This document shows, one piece after another, positions 6,104 to 46,169 of a stretch of DNA of 64,000 bases. The notes beneath the pieces are model-generated. The model was not told where the DNA came from. It searched no databases and saw only the letters and a program-made list of their open reading frames with translations. The stretch is from contig NZ_QPJS01000005.1 of the NCBI RefSeq assembly GCF_003337435.1, positions 62,001 through 126,000 on the forward strand, read 5' to 3'. Each line of letters starts with the position of its first letter. The stretch's first letter is position 1. Source of the stretch: Schleiferia thermophila. Its GTDB lineage: Bacteria; Bacteroidota; Bacteroidia; Flavobacteriales; Schleiferiaceae. The translations under genes were made by a program, and so were the position numbers.

Positions 6104-7156
6104 ATGACTTTACAAAATACATTTCAATCAGACCATTTATTGCTCAAAGCCCTCCGCGGTCAAGAGGTTTCAAGACCCCCGGTGTGGATGATGCGCCAGG
6201 CCGGCCGATACTTGCCGTCCTACATGCAATTGAGAAGAAAATACGATTTTTTTACCCGGGTCCAGACACCAGAACTCGCCTGTGAAATCACCCTCCAGCC
6301 TGTAGACCAAATAGGGGTGGATGCAGCCATTCTGTTTAGCGACATTTTGGTAGTGCCTCAAGCCATGGGTCTTGAAGTCCAGTTAGTGGAAAACAAAGGC
6401 CCCTACCTTCCAAAAACCATTGAAAACCGCTCCGACATCAATTCACTCGTAGTATCCGAAGCAGCCGATCGACTAGGCTACGTCTATGAGGCTATACGGC
6501 TGATAAAGTCTGAGCTCAATGGCAAAGTACCTCTAATCGGTTTTGCCGGAGCACCATTTACCCTACTGTGCTACATGGTAGAAGGCAAAGGCTCAAAAAA
6601 CTTTGACAAAGCAAGGCAATTTTGCATTCGCCGGCCGGATCTGGCACACATGCTACTTGCCTCCGTTACAGAGGTCACAACAGAATATCTGAAACGCCAG
6701 GTACAGGCCGGAGCCGATGTGGTTCAGGTCTTCGATTCCTGGAGCGGACTGCTCTCACCGGATGATTTCAAAGCATTTGCTGAGCCGTATTTGCTATCCA
6801 TAGCGGAGGCACTGGCGCCATTAGCTCCTGTCATATTATATCCAAAAGGCTCCTGGTATGCGCTACAAGACCTCTCCAATTCGCCTTACGTCGCTGCCCT
6901 GGGAGTAGACTGGTGCATCAGTCCGTCAATGGCCCGCAAATTAACCGGTAGTACTATCACCTTGCAGGGCAATTTTGACCCGGCACATTTGCATGCCCCC
7001 GTCGATCAGATTAAGAAGGAAGTTCACCGTATGATCCGGGAATTTGGCCATCGCCGTTACATCGCCAATCTCGGCCACGGCATCACTCCCGATGTGCCGG
7101 TTGACCATGCCAGAGCCTTTGTAGATGCCGTAAAAAGCTATACGCCGGATATGTGA
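6104..7156 (+). CDS. hemE: uroporphyrinogen decarboxylase
   Basis: Decarboxylates the four acetate side chains of uroporphyrinogen III to give coproporphyrinogen III in haem synthesis; cytoplasmic. The family hallmark PPVWMMRQAGRYLPSYMQLR with its two arginines is at residues ~25-44, followed by ILFSDILVVPQAMG with the conserved aspartate, GFAGAPFTLLCYMVEG, and the C-terminal NLGHGITPDVP. 350 residues, normal. No other haem genes sit beside it. The next gene encodes a haem protein but has its own promoter. Confidence 0.96.
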   Translation: MTLQNTFQSDHLLLKALRGQEVSRPPVWMMRQAGRYLPSYMQLRRKYDFFTRVQTPELACEITLQPVDQIGVDAAILFSDILVVPQAMGLEVQLVENKGPYLPKTIENRSDINSLVVSEAADRLGYVYEAIRLIKSELNGKVPLIGFAGAPFTLLCYMVEGKGSKNFDKARQFCIRRPDLAHMLLASVTEVTTEYLKRQVQAGADVVQVFDSWSGLLSPDDFKAFAEPYLLSIAEALAPLAPVILYPKGSWYALQDLSNSPYVAALGVDWCISPSMARKLTGSTITLQGNFDPAHLHAPVDQIKKEVHRMIREFGHRRYIANLGHGITPDVPVDHARAFVDAVKSYTPDM

Positions 7157-7180
7157 TGTTCAACGCATTTTTGCTTTGAA

Positions 7181-7215
7181 TTGAAACAAATAAGATGGGT
7201 TTTGACTTAAATTTG
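7181..7215 (+). promoter_or_regulatory. promoter of the di-heme peroxidase gene
   Basis: TTG at 7181-7183 and TAAATTTG (7208-7215), an exact -7 match. The 24-bp spacer is slightly long. The ATG lies 18 bp after the -7 box. Confidence 0.5.
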
Positions 7216-7233
7216 TAGTCAAGGTCGCCGATA

Positions 7234-8316
7234 ATGAGAGGTAATGCACTTGTTTTTTGGATGATTGTCGGGCTGGTGGTTGTTGCAGCCTGTTCCAAAG
7301 ATACCAAAGGGGCTGAACCTGTCCATACACCGACGCCGTATCAGCTGAAGGTTCCAAGAGGGTTTCCTCCCCCATTGCTCAACCCCGACAATCCACTCAC
7401 TGTAGAAGGAGTTGAGCTCGGACGTCATCTTTTTTACGAAAAAAAACTCTCCCGCGACAATACCTTGAGCTGCGCCAGCTGCCACAAGCAGGAATTTGCA
7501 TTTTCCGATGCTCCTAATCGCTTCAGCAAAGGGGTAGATGGACTCAGCGGCAGTTTCAATGCCATGCACATTGTCAATATGGCATGGCTGCAACACTTTT
7601 TTTGGGATGGCCGCTCTCCAAGTCTCGAAGAACAGTCCTTTCATCCGGTGGTCGACCCTCTGGAACTGAATACTACCTGGGAATCTGTGTTGGAAAAGCT
7701 CCGGCAGACCCCCAAATATCCGCCTATGTTTAAAAAGGCCTTTGGCACAGAAGAAATTACAGTGGAAAGAGTCACTAAAGCCATCGCCCAATTCGAACGC
7801 ACGCTGATATCAGGCAACTCCAAATTTGACCAGTGGCAGAGAGGTGAAGCTCAACTCACTGAGCTGGAGCTGTTTGGTTTTACCCTTTTTGAAACCGAAA
7901 GAGGAGACTGCTTCCACTGCCATGGCTCCACCACCACAGGCAATCTTTTTGGCGCTTTTGGTCAATTGGTCTTTACCAACAATGGCCTCGAACCTGACGC
8001 CACCATGCCCCCAGGCCGAATGAATGTAACCGGTAATCCCGCTGACCGCGGGAAATTTAAAATTCCTTCCCTCCGCAATGTAGCCGTTACCTTTCCCTAC
8101 TTCCACGATGGCAGATTCCAAAACCTCCAGGAAGTCATCGAATTCTACAACATGGGCGGGCACCCCTCCAACACCATTGATCCCAATATGAAAGCTGCGG
8201 GTGTAGGTCGCAACTGGACTCAATACGAAAAAAGCGCCTTACTGGCTTTTTTAAACACCCTCACTGATGTGGAATTCCTTACCAATCCTGCCTTCTCCGA
8301 TCCAAATGAAGAGTAA
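7234..8316 (+). CDS. di-heme cytochrome c peroxidase/MauG family lipoprotein
   Basis: Periplasmic, lipid-anchored c-type haem protein. A signal peptide ends at the lipobox VVAAC (Cys20). Two haem c sites are visible: CASCH (residues 80-84) and CFHCH (226-230), with the usual CCP/MauG spacing and conserved segments GRHLFYEKKLSRDNTLSC, FWDGR and KIPSLRNVAVTFPYFHDG. The family either reduces H2O2 using cytochrome c or oxidises a protein or small-molecule partner (MauG-like); which applies is not determinable. 360 residues, complete. The next transcript begins with the poly-C promoter. Confidence 0.92.
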   Translation: MRGNALVFWMIVGLVVVAACSKDTKGAEPVHTPTPYQLKVPRGFPPPLLNPDNPLTVEGVELGRHLFYEKKLSRDNTLSCASCHKQEFAFSDAPNRFSKGVDGLSGSFNAMHIVNMAWLQHFFWDGRSPSLEEQSFHPVVDPLELNTTWESVLEKLRQTPKYPPMFKKAFGTEEITVERVTKAIAQFERTLISGNSKFDQWQRGEAQLTELELFGFTLFETERGDCFHCHGSTTTGNLFGAFGQLVFTNNGLEPDATMPPGRMNVTGNPADRGKFKIPSLRNVAVTFPYFHDGRFQNLQEVIEFYNMGGHPSNTIDPNMKAAGVGRNWTQYEKSALLAFLNTLTDVEFLTNPAFSDPNEE

Positions 8317-8364
8317 ACAAGATTATACGACACTTTATTTTTAGATATTATTTAACATTATTCA

Positions 8365-8395
8365 TTTGGAAATATACCCCCCCCCCTCATATTTG
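8365..8395 (+). promoter_or_regulatory. promoter with a ten-C homopolymer in its spacer
   Basis: TTTG (8365-8368), a 19-bp spacer, then CATATTTG (8388-8395; one mismatch to TAnnTTTG). The spacer contains C10 at 8377-8386. The spacer length is optimal at the present C count, so slippage would move it off optimum. Drives the lipoprotein gene at 8466 and probably the two after it. Confidence 0.5.
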
Positions 8396-8421
8396 CAAAG
8401 CTTTAACTAAAAGTGGCCATC

Positions 8422-8452
8422 TGGTTAAGCACTTCAACCCATTGTTTAACCA
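8422..8452 (+). promoter_or_regulatory. 5'-leader hairpin
   Basis: TGGTTAA (8422-8428) and TTAACCA (8446-8452) form a 7-bp perfect stem in the ~64-nt leader of the lipoprotein operon, 13 nt before the ATG. Its role is unknown. Confidence 0.3.
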
Positions 8453-8465
8453 AAAAGTTAACGTA

Positions 8466-8933
8466 ATGAAAAATGCAATTTTTGCCCTATTGGCCATGGC
8501 AGCCATCTCCTTCAGCTGTCAAAAAACCGAGCCATTCACGCCCCAAGCCCAAGTACCTGAGTTGAGTCGTGTACCCGATACCATTTACCGGGCTACGTTT
8601 CTGCCTAATAAATGGAGTGGTACAAAATTAGAATGCATAAATGAAAAAGGTGATTGCTTTGATGAGGTGGAAGTCAGAACCATCCCCTCGGATCAACGAG
8701 ACCTGCTGGCAGCTATGCTCACCATGGAGCCGGCACAAGTAGCCGAAGTATTTGCCAACAACCGGCTCAGTGCATTCGCTGACTTTGCCAGACCTGAATT
8801 TGAAGACATTCTTCAATACCTCAGCGCCCAGGGCGCAGTGGTAGAAAAAGTACTTGCTCAAAACACAGATTTTTATAAATTTAGCTCCACAGAAGGTACG
8901 CTCTTGTTCGTAATTCCAGTGGTCAATGATTAA
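8466..8933 (+). CDS. lipoprotein of unknown function, first of a three-gene cluster
   Basis: No family recognised. Start at MKNAIF (8466), giving a clean signal peptide and lipobox AISFSC; the upstream ATG at 8442 would add a polar MFNQKVNV extension. The mature ~135 residues are mixed alpha/beta with one Cys pair (LECINEKGDC) that might form a disulfide, and a C-terminal strand TLLFVIPVVND. Its stop overlaps the start of the next lipoprotein by 8 bp, implying translational coupling. Expression probably depends on the poly-C promoter. Confidence 0.65.
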   Translation: MKNAIFALLAMAAISFSCQKTEPFTPQAQVPELSRVPDTIYRATFLPNKWSGTKLECINEKGDCFDEVEVRTIPSDQRDLLAAMLTMEPAQVAEVFANNRLSAFADFARPEFEDILQYLSAQGAVVEKVLAQNTDFYKFSSTEGTLLFVIPVVND

Positions 8934-9966
8934 AACATACTATTTACCTACAGCACAGGCAGGTTTACTGCTTGTGCTTTTTCTCTTTGCATCATGCAGT
9001 CAAAAAAAGCAAGAAAAAGCACCCAATATGGTGCTTGAAAGAGAAATCTATCTGGGCGATCAGCTGTATGAAAAAATACAAATCAACTCAATAACCGATG
9101 AGGGAGTTTTTATTCTAAACAAAGGAAAACAACAAATATGTCTGCATACCGAGGATACTGTGCTATACTGTGTTGATTTAAAAAGATATACCAATGGCAG
9201 GCCTGTTTTTTCGTGCTCATTTCTCGATACGTGCAACTTTATGCTTGATGTACTTAATTATAATGACACTACAAAAAGTTTCATGGGGATATTATATGAT
9301 GACAGAACATACATCAATTACATTGTTTCGAAAAATTGCGTCCTGAAAGAATTTATAATCGACGATTTTTCAGGCCATGAAGATGCAATACATTTATTGT
9401 ATGGATTAAAAAATTTTTCGGACAAGTATGTTGTACTGGAAAGACTGCCCCAGGAAATAAATTATTCAAAAGTTAATCAAGCTTCTTATTTGGAATTGCG
9501 TGATTTTGAAGGGAATCTTTTAAACAAAATCACAGAAGACCCCAGTAAAATAAAATACAATTTTTTATACGCTGTTTGTGAAGATGGGCTATATTTTGTA
9601 AAAGCTGAAGATTCCTGGAAAACAAACAAACTTTTAGGTTTAGATACCGTGTATTTCATGAATGAACATGAAATAAAACCGGTATTTTGCTTCCCAATGA
9701 AACCATATAAATCAACGTTAATTGCCTACTGTCCTGACACAAGGTCTATTGCATTGCTCTACATTATATTGGATGAAACTTCTGAACACTACAACCGGAA
9801 AGTAGTACTTATCTATAACCTGGACAAAAAAACACACTATTACTTTCCTGTTCGCCGGGATTTAGTATTTATCCCCTTTCAAATTCACAAGGGAAAACTA
9901 TATTTTCACAAATACAACCATGAAAACCATACAATCAGCCTTTATTCTCATACTATTCGGCATTAA
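8926..9966 (+). CDS. lipoprotein, possible TolB-like/6-bladed beta-propeller
   Basis: 346 residues with signal peptide and lipobox FASC (Cys25). The body is a run of short strands with repeating Y/F-V/I-D patterns (YVVLERLPQEI, LYFVKAEDSW, IALLYIILDE), which fits the beta-propeller lipoproteins of Bacteroidota such as the BF3164 type, but no firm match was made. The DNA is clearly more A+T-rich than the flanking genes, a possible sign of transfer. It overlaps both neighbours (8 bp upstream, 47 bp downstream), so the three genes form one translationally coupled unit. Confidence 0.6.
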   Translation: MIKTYYLPTAQAGLLLVLFLFASCSQKKQEKAPNMVLEREIYLGDQLYEKIQINSITDEGVFILNKGKQQICLHTEDTVLYCVDLKRYTNGRPVFSCSFLDTCNFMLDVLNYNDTTKSFMGILYDDRTYINYIVSKNCVLKEFIIDDFSGHEDAIHLLYGLKNFSDKYVVLERLPQEINYSKVNQASYLELRDFEGNLLNKITEDPSKIKYNFLYAVCEDGLYFVKAEDSWKTNKLLGLDTVYFMNEHEIKPVFCFPMKPYKSTLIAYCPDTRSIALLYIILDETSEHYNRKVVLIYNLDKKTHYYFPVRRDLVFIPFQIHKGKLYFHKYNHENHTISLYSHTIRH

Positions 9967-40440: not shown

Positions 40441-41466
40441 TTACTCAATATAAGGTTTACCTACGGCACTGCCGTCATATGCCCATTTTACGTATACAGC
40501 ACCCCATGTAAATCCTCCTCCAAAGGCAGCCAATATCAGGTTGTCACCCTTTTTCAGCTTGCTTTCGTAGTCCCACAGCAAGAGGGGTATGGTGCCGTTG
40601 GTGGTATTTCCATACCGGTGAATATTGAGCATCACTTTAGTGTCGTCGAGGTTCATTCGCCTTGCGGTAGCATCTATGATTCTCTTGTTGGCCTGGTGTG
40701 GTACCAGCCAGGCGACATCATCGGGGGATAGGCCGTTGCGCTCCATGATCTGAGCCGCCACCTCCGCCATATTGGTCACGGCAAACTTAAAAACAGCCTG
40801 TCCTTCCTGATGCACAAAGTGTTCGCGGTTTTCTACCGTGCTTTTGGTAGGCGGGTACATACTTCCTCCGGCTTTGATGTAGAGGTATTCCCGACCTATT
40901 CCATCGCTGCGGAGGATGTGGTCCAATACTCCGTACTGCTCATCGCTGGGCTCCAGCAACACGGCACCACATCCATCGCCAAAAATCACACAGGTAGTGC
41001 GGTCGGTGTAATCGATGATGGAAGACATCTTATCGCCACCAACCAGCAGCACTTTTTTATAGGAACCTGTCTCCACAAACTGTGCAGCCGTCACCAGACC
41101 GTACAAAAAACCTGAACAGGCAGCCTGCAGGTCAAAGCCAAAGGCATTTTTTGCTCCGATTTCGCTGCACAAATAGGCAGCAGTGGAGGCCACCGGCATA
41201 TCCGGCGTGGTAGTACTTACGATCACAAGGTCGATTTCGCTGCCGTCTATGCCGCGTTTTGTAAGGCATTCGGCTATGGCTTTTTTTGCCATATACGATA
41301 CTCCAAGACCCTCTCCTTTTAAAATTCTGCGCTCTTTAATGCCCGTCCGCGTTGTGATCCACTCATCAGAAGTGTCTACCATGGTTTCGAGCAGGGCATT
41401 GGTCAATCTGAATTCAGGAACATATCCTCCAACAGATGTGATGGCCGCCGTGATTTTGCGATCCAT
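40441..41466 (-). CDS. fabH: 3-oxoacyl-[acyl-carrier-protein] synthase III
   Basis: Starts fatty-acid synthesis by condensing a primer acyl-CoA with malonyl-ACP. Thiolase fold with catalytic triad: C117 ([10 protein letters not shown]), H257 (VPHQANKRI) and N287 ([11 protein letters not shown]). 341 residues, complete. In Bacteroidota the primer is often branched-chain or propionyl-CoA. First gene of the fabH-accB-accC operon, which joins malonyl-CoA supply with chain initiation. The promoter could not be fixed; a 396-bp spacer separates it from the divergent esterase operon. Confidence 0.96.
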
Positions 41467-41862: not shown

Positions 41863-42585
41863 ATGACAAATGAAAGGTACATTAAATGGCATTCGAGCCA
41901 CTTGAACATGGACATTGAAATGCTGGTGTACGGATATAAGGGCATGCCCTTACTCATTTTTCCTACCAGCATGGGCAGATTCTATGAGGCGAAAGATTTC
42001 AGACTGATACATTCGATTGACTGGTTTCTGAGAGAGGGATTTTTCAAGGTGTATTGTATTGATGGGATTGACCGCTACAGCTGGTACAACAGATCTATTC
42101 ACCCTGCCGACAGGGTTAAGAATCACATTTGGTACGACCTGATGGTGTATCGCGAACTGGTCCCGTGGGCCATGCACGAAACCGGATTTGGAAAGGTAGC
42201 TGTGGCCGGGTGTAGCTTTGGTGGTTATCACGCGGTGAACTTTGGTCTGAAACACCCCGACAGCACCAAATACATCCTCAGCATGAGCGGAGCTTTTAAC
42301 ATCAAAGGCAGATTGGACGGCTACTACGATGACAACGTATATTTTAACAATCCGCCGGACTTTCTGCCTAACGCATGGGATGACCACTTCAGAGACCTCT
42401 TTGTGTTTCTTGGAGCCGGTGAGTGGGACATCTGCCTGGGCGACAACTACGAAATGGCCGACTTACTCGGTCGAAGAGGTATCCGCAACTGGCTGGACAT
42501 CAGGCCGCGTGAGGTTCATGATTGGCCCCTTTGGCGCATGATTTTTCCGCACTATTTGTCAATGATCGTCAACTCACAGGTATAA
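41863..42585 (+). CDS. esterase-D/antigen 85-type alpha/beta hydrolase
   Basis: 240 residues with no signal peptide. Nucleophile elbow GCSFGGYH gives S118; the C-terminal EVHDWPLW supplies the likely catalytic H219, with an aspartate between. The opening (RYIKWHSSHLNMDIEMLVYG, PLLIFPTSMGRFYEAKDF) is typical of the PF00756 putative-esterase group found next to ATP-grasp and carboxylate-amine ligase genes. Possible roles are ester or thioester release, or cleavage of a small acyl conjugate; the substrate is unknown. First gene of a tight three-gene operon: the ATP-grasp gene starts 18 bp later. Confidence 0.82.
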   Translation: MTNERYIKWHSSHLNMDIEMLVYGYKGMPLLIFPTSMGRFYEAKDFRLIHSIDWFLREGFFKVYCIDGIDRYSWYNRSIHPADRVKNHIWYDLMVYRELVPWAMHETGFGKVAVAGCSFGGYHAVNFGLKHPDSTKYILSMSGAFNIKGRLDGYYDDNVYFNNPPDFLPNAWDDHFRDLFVFLGAGEWDICLGDNYEMADLLGRRGIRNWLDIRPREVHDWPLWRMIFPHYLSMIVNSQV

Positions 42586-42603
42586 AAATTTAAACCCGCA
42601 ACT

Positions 42604-43626
42604 ATGAAGAAAATAGGAATTCTCTTTGGCATGGAAAGAAGCTTCCCCAAAGCTTTTGTGGAGGCCGTAAACGAAATGAATGTGGACGGAATCACGGCAG
42701 AACCTGTACAGGTAGACGTCGTTCAGCAGGCAATTGGTACCGATTACGCAGTAATCATCGATCGAATATCGCAGGATGTCCCCTTTTACAGAGCTTACCT
42801 GAAAAATGCAGCTGCAGCCGGTACTGCAGTCATCAACAATCCATTTTGGTGGAGTGCCGATGAAAAGTTTATCAACAACAGCATCGCCATATCGGTAGGT
42901 GTTCCAGTGCCAAAGACCGTACTGCTGCCGAGCTTTGCCAGACCCGACGATACCACCGATGCCTCTTTCAGCAATCTGGCTTTTCCGCTTTCCTGGCAAA
43001 ACATATTTGACTATCTGGGCTTTCCGGTTTTTATGAAACCACATGCCGGCGGTGGTTGGAAGAGTGTCTTCAAAGTACACAATGTGGATGAATTTTTCAA
43101 CGCATATCACCAAACCGGCCAACTGGTGATGATGGCTCAAGAAGCCATCGAATTTGAGGAATATTACCGGATTTACTGCATCGGACGGAAATATGTACGC
43201 ATCATGCCTTATGAGCCTCGCAATCCACATCACCTGCGCTATGTAAGCGATAAGCATCCCTCAGCTGAAATGGAAAAATTGCTTACAGATTACGTGCTTC
43301 GCCTCAACAATGCCCTCGGTTACGACTTCAATACCGTTGAATTTGCCGTTAGGGATGGCATTCCGTACGCTATAGACTTTTGCAATCCTGCCCCGGATGC
43401 CGATGTACATTCGGTGGGCGAAGAAAATTTCAGATGGGTCGTCGAACACGCTGCCAAATATGCCGTGGAGAGAGCTCAGGCTCACAGAGATGGACAAATG
43501 AACCTCACCTGGGGCGACTTTGTCAAACGCTCGGTAACCGAATCAGAATTACCTGCCAGCGAAGCATCAAAAAAGACCTCAAAGTCTGGATCCTCTAGAA
43601 GTAAATCTTCGAAAAAAACCACTTAA
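42604..43626 (+). CDS. ATP-grasp (RimK-like) ligase with Ser/Lys-rich tail
   Basis: 340 residues, cytoplasmic. The ATP-grasp core is visible: FPVFMKPHAGGGWKSVFKV (phosphate-binding loop), MMAQEAIEFEEYYRIYCIG (adenine-contact strand), and the metal-binding end VEFAVRDGIPYAIDFCNPAPD. Such enzymes join a carboxylate to an amine or thiol by an acyl-phosphate. The last ~20 residues are Ser/Lys/Thr-only (SKKTSKSGSSRSKSS), unlike the rest, and may be a nucleic-acid or partner-binding tail. Between an esterase gene (18 bp) and a GCS2-type ligase gene (11 bp). Confidence 0.85.
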   Translation: MKKIGILFGMERSFPKAFVEAVNEMNVDGITAEPVQVDVVQQAIGTDYAVIIDRISQDVPFYRAYLKNAAAAGTAVINNPFWWSADEKFINNSIAISVGVPVPKTVLLPSFARPDDTTDASFSNLAFPLSWQNIFDYLGFPVFMKPHAGGGWKSVFKVHNVDEFFNAYHQTGQLVMMAQEAIEFEEYYRIYCIGRKYVRIMPYEPRNPHHLRYVSDKHPSAEMEKLLTDYVLRLNNALGYDFNTVEFAVRDGIPYAIDFCNPAPDADVHSVGEENFRWVVEHAAKYAVERAQAHRDGQMNLTWGDFVKRSVTESELPASEASKKTSKSGSSRSKSSKKTT

Positions 43627-43637
43627 AAAATTCTTAC

Positions 43638-44747
43638 ATGGGACTGCCTAAATTTACCCTCGGCGTAGAAGAGGAATACATGGTAGTACATCCCGAAACA
43701 CGGGAACTTACCAGTCATGAACAGAAAATCGTGGAAATAGCTTCCCGGACGATGGACGATAAGGTCAAGGCTGAAATGCACCAGGCTGTGGTGGAGGTCG
43801 GTACTTCCATCTGCAACAATGTCCATGAAGTGCGCGATGAAATCCGAAAACTCAGAAAAAATGTCTCAGACATAGCCGGAGAATTGGGACTGAGAATCGG
43901 TTGCTCGGGTACACACCCCTTCTCCCTCTGGACAAAACAACTCATCACCCCAAATCCACGATACGATGAAATCGTAAACGAAATGCAAGAAGCCGCCCGA
44001 AGCAATCTGATCTTTGGCCTACATGTGCATGTGGGCATGCCCAACAAACCTACCGCCATGCACATCGCCAATACAATGCGCTATTTTCTGCCTCACCTTT
44101 ATGCACTCAGCACCAATTCACCCTTCTGGGAAGGGAGAAATACAGGTTTTAAGTCCTTCAGAAGCAAGGTATTCGACAAATTTCCACGCACCGGTATACC
44201 CGACTATTTCGGAAGCTATGAAGATTACATGCGCTATGTAAATCTATTGGTGAAAACCAACTGCATTGACAATGCGAAAAAAATCTGGTGGGACTTACGT
44301 GTGCACCCCTTTTTCGACACCATCGAGTTTCGGATTTGTGACATTCCGATGACCTGTGAAGAGACCGTTTGCCTCACCGCACTCTTCCAGGCACTCGCAG
44401 CCAAAATCTTCAAACTCCGGCAGCAAAATATGGGCTTCATCATCTACCAGCGAGCCTTGATCAACGAAAACAAATGGCGTGCAAGCCGATATGGCATCGA
44501 TGGCAAGCTGATCGACTTTGGAAAAGAAGAAGAAGTGCGGGTGCGCGTGCTGATCGAAGAGCTCCTCGACTTCGTGGACGATGTGCTCGACGAGCTCGAC
44601 TGCCGGAGAGAAGCTGAATATGCGCTGAAAATACTGGAAATGGGTACAGGAGCCGACCGCCAGCTCAAAGTGTTTGAAGAAAGCGGAGGAGACTTTATCC
44701 AAGTAGTCGACTACATCCTGGAGCAATCCATTTGCGACTGCGATTGA
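43638..44747 (+). CDS. GCS2/YbdK-family carboxylate-amine ligase
   Basis: 369 residues of the glutamate-cysteine-ligase 2 family. LGVEEEYMVV (the metal-binding glutamates), ELTSHEQKIVEIASR, LRIGCSGTHPFSLW, NLIFGLHVHVGMP (the conserved His-x-His-x-Gly) and FDTIEFRICDIPMT are all family landmarks. The family forms amide bonds with ATP; YbdK itself has only weak gamma-glutamylcysteine activity and members in gene clusters probably act on other substrates. Third gene of the operon, after an 11-bp gap. Complete; no terminator was found. Confidence 0.88.
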   Translation: MGLPKFTLGVEEEYMVVHPETRELTSHEQKIVEIASRTMDDKVKAEMHQAVVEVGTSICNNVHEVRDEIRKLRKNVSDIAGELGLRIGCSGTHPFSLWTKQLITPNPRYDEIVNEMQEAARSNLIFGLHVHVGMPNKPTAMHIANTMRYFLPHLYALSTNSPFWEGRNTGFKSFRSKVFDKFPRTGIPDYFGSYEDYMRYVNLLVKTNCIDNAKKIWWDLRVHPFFDTIEFRICDIPMTCEETVCLTALFQALAAKIFKLRQQNMGFIIYQRALINENKWRASRYGIDGKLIDFGKEEEVRVRVLIEELLDFVDDVLDELDCRREAEYALKILEMGTGADRQLKVFEESGGDFIQVVDYILEQSICDCD

Positions 44748-45018: not shown

Positions 45019-45675
45019 TTACACAAGAGCTGCTAATTCATCCGGCCCGGAGACAAGGGTATTGCCTGTAAAATCCTTGCGAAGCAAAGCCTGTATCAAC
45101 AGCTCCAAATGCTGGTCATTTCCGATAAAATCAAAAGATTCCCTGACCAGAGTAATCGTCGGGGTTGTAACCATTTTCAGAAAGTTCTTGTATTCTTCGG
45201 AAAGTCTGAGCAGATATTCTGAAGGGATGTTTTGCTCAAAACTCCTTCCTCTCGATTTTATGTTGGACATAAGAGTGGGCAGCTCTGCACGAATAAAAAT
45301 GATCAAATCCGGCCCACGGATGGAGGAAAAAAGCGCATCGAAAAATTGACTGTAAAGGCGGAACTCTTTAGGCGAAAGATTTACAGAGGCAAAGAGCTTC
45401 GATTTCAGAGGATGGTAATCGCTTACTACATCTGGTTGAAACAAATCGGATTGGGTCAAAATACCAGACAATTGTGCATATCGCTCCGCCATGAAGGCCA
45501 TTTCCACCGTAAAAGCCCATCGCTCCGGACTGGTATAAAATTCCTCCAGAAACGGATTGTCGGCAAACTGCTCCAAGACAAGGCGGGCATTGAGTCGCTG
45601 AGCGAGCATTTGGGCAAGTGTAGTCTTACCAGCGCCAATATTTCCCTCTATTGCAATGTATTTACCGAGTTTCAA
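45019..45675 (-). CDS. deoxynucleoside kinase
   Basis: Phosphorylates deoxynucleosides in salvage (dGK/dAK or dCK family). P-loop KYIAIEGNIGAGKTTLA, the DRS-equivalent region VVSDYHPLKSKLFA, and the lid SNIKSRGRSFEQN. The start is taken as TTG at 45675, whose TTGA overlaps the folK stop; the apparent N-terminal extension to 45729 lies inside folK. That gives 218 residues, the normal family length. folK-dNK adjacency is conserved in Bacteroidota, so co-translation is likely. The last residues (DELAALV) are variable in the family. Confidence 0.9.
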   Translation of the reverse strand: MKLGKYIAIEGNIGAGKTTLAQMLAQRLNARLVLEQFADNPFLEEFYTSPERWAFTVEMAFMAERYAQLSGILTQSDLFQPDVVSDYHPLKSKLFASVNLSPKEFRLYSQFFDALFSSIRGPDLIIFIRAELPTLMSNIKSRGRSFEQNIPSEYLLRLSEEYKNFLKMVTTPTITLVRESFDFIGNDQHLELLIQALLRKDFTGNTLVSGPDELAALV

Positions 45676-46169
45676 TTCAACTTTTCTATTTTGCTGTCGT
45701 CTCCACACTCGGAGAGCAATTCCATACAAGTCTTTTTTAGCACCGGATGCACCCAGTCGGGAGAGATTTCTTTCACCGGAACGAGGGCAAACTTACGCAA
45801 GTGCAGCCGGGGATGAGGAATGCATAGTTCATTGGATTGATATACCAATTCATACGAATGAATGATGTCGATATCGAGTTGCCGCGACTGATACCCCATA
45901 CCCGAATTACGTCTCCGGCCAAATTGCTTTTCAATTTCCAGCACGGTGTGTAAAAGTTCATCAGGTGAAAGTGAGCATCTAACCTCCACGGCCATGTTCA
46001 AGAAGTCGTCACCAACCATCCCCCAGGCCGGTGTTTTAAAAACAGAGGATTTTGCGACAATTTCAAGACCCGACTGAGCCAATACCATCAATGCTCCATC
46101 AAATGCCGTCAATACCTCACCTTGATTTCCCCCCAAGAGGAGTACATAATGATTTTGTGAATTTTGCAT
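45672..46169 (-). CDS. folK: 6-hydroxymethyl-7,8-dihydropterin pyrophosphokinase
   Basis: Transfers pyrophosphate from ATP to the pterin in folate synthesis. HYVLLLGGNQGEVLTAFD at the start, SSVFKTPAWGM (pterin loop), and the family signature RQLDIDIIHSYE with the two metal-binding aspartates. IPHPRLHLRKFALVPVKEI is intact. The start at MQNSQNHY (46169) is preferred over 46190. 165 residues. Divergent from sppA with a 61-bp spacer, and its stop overlaps the dNK start. Confidence 0.95.
   Translation of the reverse strand: MQNSQNHYVLLLGGNQGEVLTAFDGALMVLAQSGLEIVAKSSVFKTPAWGMVGDDFLNMAVEVRCSLSPDELLHTVLEIEKQFGRRRNSGMGYQSRQLDIDIIHSYELVYQSNELCIPHPRLHLRKFALVPVKEISPDWVHPVLKKTCMELLSECGDDSKIEKLN

Follow-up and report, generated by a model that had tools for sequence, protein, structure and literature searches.

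In the 64,000 nucleotides (nt) of Schleiferia thermophila DNA analysed here (contig NZ_QPJS01000005.1, positions 62,001 to 126,000; hereafter the window) we examined a three-gene operon, EST1-AG-GCS, that encodes an esterase, an ATP-grasp ligase and a carboxylate-amine ligase. We propose, with a probability of about one half, that this operon is the linked portion of a pathway conserved in Bacteroidota, in which three ATP-dependent ligases join small building blocks in a manner resembling glutathione or glutathionylspermidine synthesis. In the best reading of the data, such a pathway would be independent of the ribosome and would yield a small peptide or a peptide-amine. What was computed here comprises the gene structure, the protein families and folds, the conserved active-site residues, the co-occurrence of AG and GCS with two further genes, c3 and c4, and the presence of c3, c4 and a second esterase gene, EST2, in the S. 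thermophila genome.

The three genes are codirectional on the forward strand. EST1 (41863-42585) encodes an alpha/beta-hydrolase esterase of 240 residues, AG (42604-43626) an ATP-grasp amide ligase of 340 residues and GCS (43638-44747) a YbdK-type carboxylate-amine ligase (GCS2) of 369 residues. A previous inspection of the bare letters (the sequence-only reading) had described a three-gene operon with gaps of 18 and 11 bp, and the open reading frame coordinates agree with it exactly (18 nt between EST1 and AG, 11 nt between AG and GCS).

By its profile matches, GCS is assigned clearly to the YbdK family, as had been claimed from the sequence. It scored above the cut-off for TIGR02050, the YbdK family (304 bits, cut-off 176), for the NCBIfam 'carboxylate-amine ligase' PRK13515.1 (537 bits, cut-off 371, residues 4-367) and for PF04107 GCS2 (219 bits, cut-off 21), of which it is the sole representative in the genome. 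The comparison with 1tt4 gave an almost full-length match (E 9e-46), and identity to Escherichia coli YbdK was around 26%, a value to be relied on within the YbdK stretch given by the database alignment. GCS also keeps, as G9-V10-E11-E12-E13 with G9, E11 and E13 invariant, the GhExE signature that is diagnostic of carboxylate-amine ligases (PMC2588565), together with H129-V-H131 and the residues R221, E230, R232 and D235.

AG had been called a RimK-like ATP-grasp protein, a description that holds for its fold and fails for its family. No Pfam family matched AG above cut-off and, because AG scored 31 bits for the RimK family TIGR00768, whose cut-off is 143, it is not a member of that family and 'RimK-like' has to be understood as a statement about fold. 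The AlphaFold model of AG (pLDDT, the predicted local distance difference test, 80) gave 487 matches in the PDB with E <= 1e-3, the best 50 of which are all ATP-grasp proteins; judged by E-value its best partner was D-Ala-D-Ala ligase, and judged by TM-score it was the LysX/ArgX group, whose structures 5k2m, 3vpb and 1uc9 showed target-normalised TM-scores of 0.69-0.75 at 15-18% identity. A search of a viral fold library with the same model returned generic ATP-grasp proteins only. Residues K145, E246, D258 and N261 were invariant across 38 aligned sequences. The metal site of D-Ala-D-Ala ligase is E-x-N; in the alignment, the corresponding D-F-C-N of AG (D258, N261) is spaced one residue wider. 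The C-terminal tail of AG (residues 314-340, 43543-43623, forward strand) had been singled out as a Ser/Lys-only oddity. It is indeed rich in Ser and Lys, but its 27 residues include three Thr besides ten Ser and six Lys, and it is a variable disordered extension: the tail is predicted to be disordered (pLDDT < 50), and it differs widely among orthologues, most rows of Chitinophagaceae having none and others carrying long stretches rich in Lys, Ala and Pro. Since it is missing from many orthologues, changes in length and composition and is disordered in the model, we discarded it as a special feature.

In many loci of relatives GCS is followed by c3, encoding a class-I glutamine amidotransferase (GATase)-like protein, and by c4. 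S. thermophila carries both genes at a second locus outside the window, L116 (G000:C1), where c3 (7078-7956) and c4 (7934-9136) overlap by 23 nt, an arrangement typical of translational coupling; upstream of them, on the same strand, lie a PF01112 isoaspartyl peptidase/asparaginase gene and a gene for a CoA-transferase-like protein. As EST2 sits at yet another locus, the set is divided in this genome and the window carries one portion of it. The c3 protein of S. thermophila matched PF00117 (30.9 bits, cut-off 22.8), and its triad C104/H207/E209 was invariant in 24 sequences. The c4 product belongs to a family of about 397 residues that matches neither Pfam nor NCBIfam. When the structure of a c4 relative was modelled (pLDDT 91.8; pTM, the predicted template modelling score, 0.91), every one of the 24 PDB matches at E <= 1e-3 fell in the glutathione-synthetase group. 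They comprised glutathione and homoglutathione synthetases of human, yeast, soybean and trypanosome, nematode glutathione-synthetase-like effectors, E. coli glutathionylspermidine synthetase, trypanothione synthetase, YgiC, YjfC and the fungal Cp1B. YgiC and YjfC have been described as peptide-spermidine ligases, and Cp1B couples epoxysuccinate to amino acids (PMC12568646). A profile comparison of AG with c4 was not significant.

Some genomes without c4 (loci L168, L169 and L175) carry, between AG and c3, a gene for a circularly permuted ATP-grasp-like protein of about 470 residues. One of two such proteins tested scored above the cut-off for PF14403 (CP_ATPgrasp_2), and the replacing protein matched a putative glutathionylspermidine synthase, 3n6x (E 4e-4), which suggests that c4 has been swapped there for a different ligase of such kind. 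At four loci (L071, L112, L113 and L175) we noted by eye a further ATP-grasp-like protein of about 400 residues adjoining c4 or the esterase.

The esterase assignment made from the sequence, including S118 and H219, was borne out. EST1 scored 30.9 bits against PF00756 Esterase (gathering cut-off 22), and S118, D189 and H219 were invariant among 22 orthologues, D189 being the acid of the Ser-acid-His triad. EST2 of S. thermophila, a second PF00756 esterase, was identified as an orthologue at 47% identity (E 1.4e-64) and lies at the third locus (C1:524145-524930) with no gene of the set alongside. A PF00756 esterase was found near AG in 96 of 110 AG loci, in the form of a codirectional EST1, a divergent EST2 or, often, both; EST1 is the codirectional upstream neighbour of AG in many relatives, and elsewhere EST2 replaces or accompanies it. 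At six loci of Cyclobacteriaceae type (L034, L035, L037, L041, L044 and L090) EST1 and AG are separated by the gene for an alpha/beta hydrolase that looks secreted and is akin to proline iminopeptidases.

We then compared the distribution of these genes in a sample of 296 genomes, all from Bacteroidota, counting as GCS the close type with at least 45% identity. AG was present in 108 genomes, close GCS in 93, c4 in 92 and c3 in 70, while 185 genomes had none of the four. Both AG and GCS occurred in 90 genomes; AG, GCS and c4 were found together in 84 genomes of 25 families, and 69 of the 70 genomes with c3 also carried AG. At the genus level, GCS was present in 63 of 78 genera with AG, and no genus had GCS without AG. 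The listed genomes of one genus (g3) carry either the whole set or none of it, with the exception of G154, which lacks AG alone: its locus (L177, G154:C60) reads GCS-c3-c4 in order, and AG was detected neither there nor elsewhere in the genome at E <= 1e-10. This genome appears to be a natural case of AG loss that would be useful for comparison.

The gene order is likewise conserved. Among the 110 AG loci, GCS lies close downstream in 91, and the order EST1-AG-GCS-c3-c4 recurs in relatives. The recurrence of the operon's own gene order in many genomes is far above chance. Thermaurantimonas aggregans, the nearest named relative, shares the trio and its arrangement, with an AG that is 88% identical; the flanks of its operon gave no alignment with those in the window and had nothing detectable in common with them. 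The sequence-only reading had left room for the genes being neighbours in this genome alone. That is not the case, because 55 genomes have AG next to GCS and another 35, from 14 families, carry the two genes unlinked, a pattern that rules out adjacency as a local accident. It is also on these counts that the earlier idea of two ligases acting together on an amide metabolite stands as a proposal; it was incomplete, however, since EST1, AG and GCS make up half of the conserved set and c3, c4 and EST2, located elsewhere in the genome, were missed. The trimming or releasing role given there to the esterase is speculative. Neither AG nor c4 was found on any of 72,556 plasmids. No substrate gene recurred among the neighbours of the unlinked copies, and the neighbours that do recur (a peptidase S10-like protein, a sigma factor, a TonB receptor and RibBA) look like lineage synteny.

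Several observations weigh against a shared pathway. The Fisher values for co-occurrence, 1e-25 or less, are uncorrected for shared ancestry. We could not detect c3 in 34 genomes that keep AG, GCS and c4, and 18 genomes with AG lack GCS, so the gene set is not one rigid pathway and GCS is not always part of it. Many relatives have no EST1 next to AG and possess the divergent EST2 only. The resemblance of c4 to glutathione synthetase is a match at the level of fold, with 10-18% identity, and the profile comparison between c4 and the protein that replaces it was not significant. In the AG model, the loop formed by residues 148-151 is uncertain. Finally, there is no substrate gene beside the operon.

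Taking both sides together, we consider the following scheme. GCS would phosphorylate a carboxylate and then couple it to an amine; this might be the gamma-carboxylate of Glu, as in characterised GCS2 relatives. AG would add or join a further amino-acid-like unit, and the unlinked c4, with its glutathione-synthetase fold, would end the chain with a capping amino acid or amine. The GCS2 reaction would proceed via an acyl phosphate, as might those of AG and c4 by analogy with characterised relatives. The c3 protein may cleave gamma-glutamyl or amide bonds or, otherwise, supply ammonia to c4, while EST1 and EST2 may hydrolyse an ester or thioester of the substrate or the product. We infer the single substrate, the order of the steps, what c3 and the esterases do and that the product is a peptide or an amide. 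About a third of the 296 genomes have kept three to four amide-ligation genes although their order was reshuffled, a sign that selection acts on a single common product. More tentatively, and we would sooner doubt this than assert it, the product might be an undescribed low-molecular-weight cofactor or peptide-amine, a gamma-glutamyl-type peptide made by three ligases (GCS2, a LysX-like ATP-grasp enzyme and a new glutathione-synthetase-fold family) alongside bacillithiol in about one third of the sampled species.

A rival explanation is plain synthesis of glutathione or gamma-glutamylcysteine, in which GCS2 would produce gamma-Glu-Cys, AG or c4 would add Gly and the esterases would be S-formylglutathione hydrolases. 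A GCS2 enzyme plus a ligase with the glutathione-synthetase fold is the logic of glutathione synthesis, and a gamma-glutamyl:cysteine ligase activity has been attributed to YbdK (Lehmann 2004, as cited in PMC2588565). S-formylglutathione hydrolase is moreover a PF00756-type esterase, but its score here is far under the cut-off: for TIGR02821 (cut-off 282 bits) an EST2 relative matched weakly with 14 bits and EST1 was not among the matches. Glutathione synthesis also requires one ATP-grasp ligase, whereas two are present here in addition to GCS2. The gshA-gshB pair has been reported in Cyanobacteria, Proteobacteria, Eukarya and one actinobacterium, and not in Bacteroidetes (PMC6282198). In the S. 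thermophila genome, the classical GshA family PF04262 had no match, and PF02955, the glutathione-synthetase ATP-grasp domain, matched one protein elsewhere (G000:C1:849343-849813, 79 bits). BshC, for bacillithiol, occurs in 291 of the 296 genomes, that of S. thermophila included, and this weakens the case for a glutathione-type compound as the sole thiol of the host. We therefore regard plain glutathione synthesis as distinctly unlikely. Glutamine-dependent amidation, in which GCS2 and AG would build a peptide and c4, fed with ammonia by c3, would amidate its C-terminal carboxylate, is unlikely as well. Its product, a peptide amide, has a precedent in the glutathione amide of purple sulfur bacteria (PMC6282198), and c3, which has the full class-I GATase triad, overlaps or adjoins c4 here and in many genomes, as glutaminase and synthetase subunits often do. 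Yet c4 can apparently work without c3, given the 34 genomes in which AG, GCS and c4 have no detectable c3, and a supply of ammonia does not follow from a fold that gamma-glutamyl hydrolases and homoserine succinyltransferase also adopt.

AG could alternatively modify a ribosomal peptide or the C terminus of a protein, as graspetide ligases or RimK do, since its fold is common to the graspetide ligase PsnB (7drm) and RimK-type proteins. We give this little credence: the gaps of 18 and 11 nt are too short for a peptide gene, no conserved precursor gene was seen in a test that covers linked precursors, the flanks of the operon being unlike those of T. aggregans, and GCS2 relatives work on small molecules, with the exception of PafA/Dop. 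The small-ORF clusters (sets of short open reading frames) that came out of the precursor search resemble shadow frames of neighbouring genes. It would be still more improbable that three housekeeping enzymes merely travel together and have no common substrate. The patchiness of the set and the loss of single members speak for this view, but AG and GCS co-occur also in the 35 genomes with unlinked copies, and genus g3 follows the all-or-none pattern broken by G154 alone.

Around the operon, reading of the neighbouring frames identified fabH as the divergent upstream gene (40441-41466, reverse strand), 396 nt from EST1, and a convergent deoxynucleoside-kinase-like gene downstream of GCS (45019-45729, reverse strand). 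Because both flanking genes lie on the reverse strand, EST1-AG-GCS forms a self-contained codirectional unit. Consensus scans for promoters and terminators in the operon region found sites no more frequent than in shuffled sequence, and the G+C content of the operon is similar to that of the surrounding DNA.

The case yields named genes, a testable list of partners that includes a family without Pfam match, and many cultured hosts that could be searched for the metabolite. If a new glutathione-like compound were indeed made, the present picture, in which bacillithiol serves the phylum as its small-molecule thiol system, would change. In the literature searched, which does not include the Iyer 2009 survey of amidoligases, we found no description of the gene set or its product, so that priority is uncertain; what came closest was a prediction, in PMC2588565, for a related GCS2-like family.

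Among known systems, the YbdK/PRK13515 ligases (1R8G, 1TT4) resemble GCS over nearly its full length, with GhExE and the other catalytic residues retained; unlike GCS, however, E. coli ybdK lies outside any such operon. AG shares its fold with LysX, ArgX and RimK and differs from them in its 15-18% identity, its RimK score below cut-off and its D-F-C-N metal site. Neighbourhoods that combine GCS2-like proteins with GAT-like thiol peptidases have been predicted to make glutathione-like peptide metabolites (PMC2588565). As in our set, a carboxylate-amine ligase is paired there with a GATase-like protein and a small peptide is the predicted product, but the ligase belongs to another family (Clostridium CJD_1902), the hosts are proteobacteria and firmicutes, and no arrangement with two ATP-grasp enzymes was described. 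Synthesis of glutathione and homoglutathione also begins with a GCS2-type ligase, and the c4 fold matches 8fbz (E 4.8e-15), 1m0w and 3kal; the set described here has in addition a LysX-like ATP-grasp enzyme, a GATase-like protein and two esterases, c4 has no Pfam match, and the host phylum has bacillithiol genes. The remaining comparison is with GspS, YgiC and YjfC. Peptide-spermidine ligase activity of such synthetases is credited to Pederick 2023, as cited in PMC12568646. The PF03738 GSP_synth family has no match in this genome, c4 resembles GspS by fold alone, and c4 lacks a fused amidase domain, its partner being the class-I GATase-like c3. The fold of c4 and a weak sequence link to YgiC (7uk8, E 0.043) nevertheless connect it with this group, as does the match of the c4-replacing protein to 3n6x.

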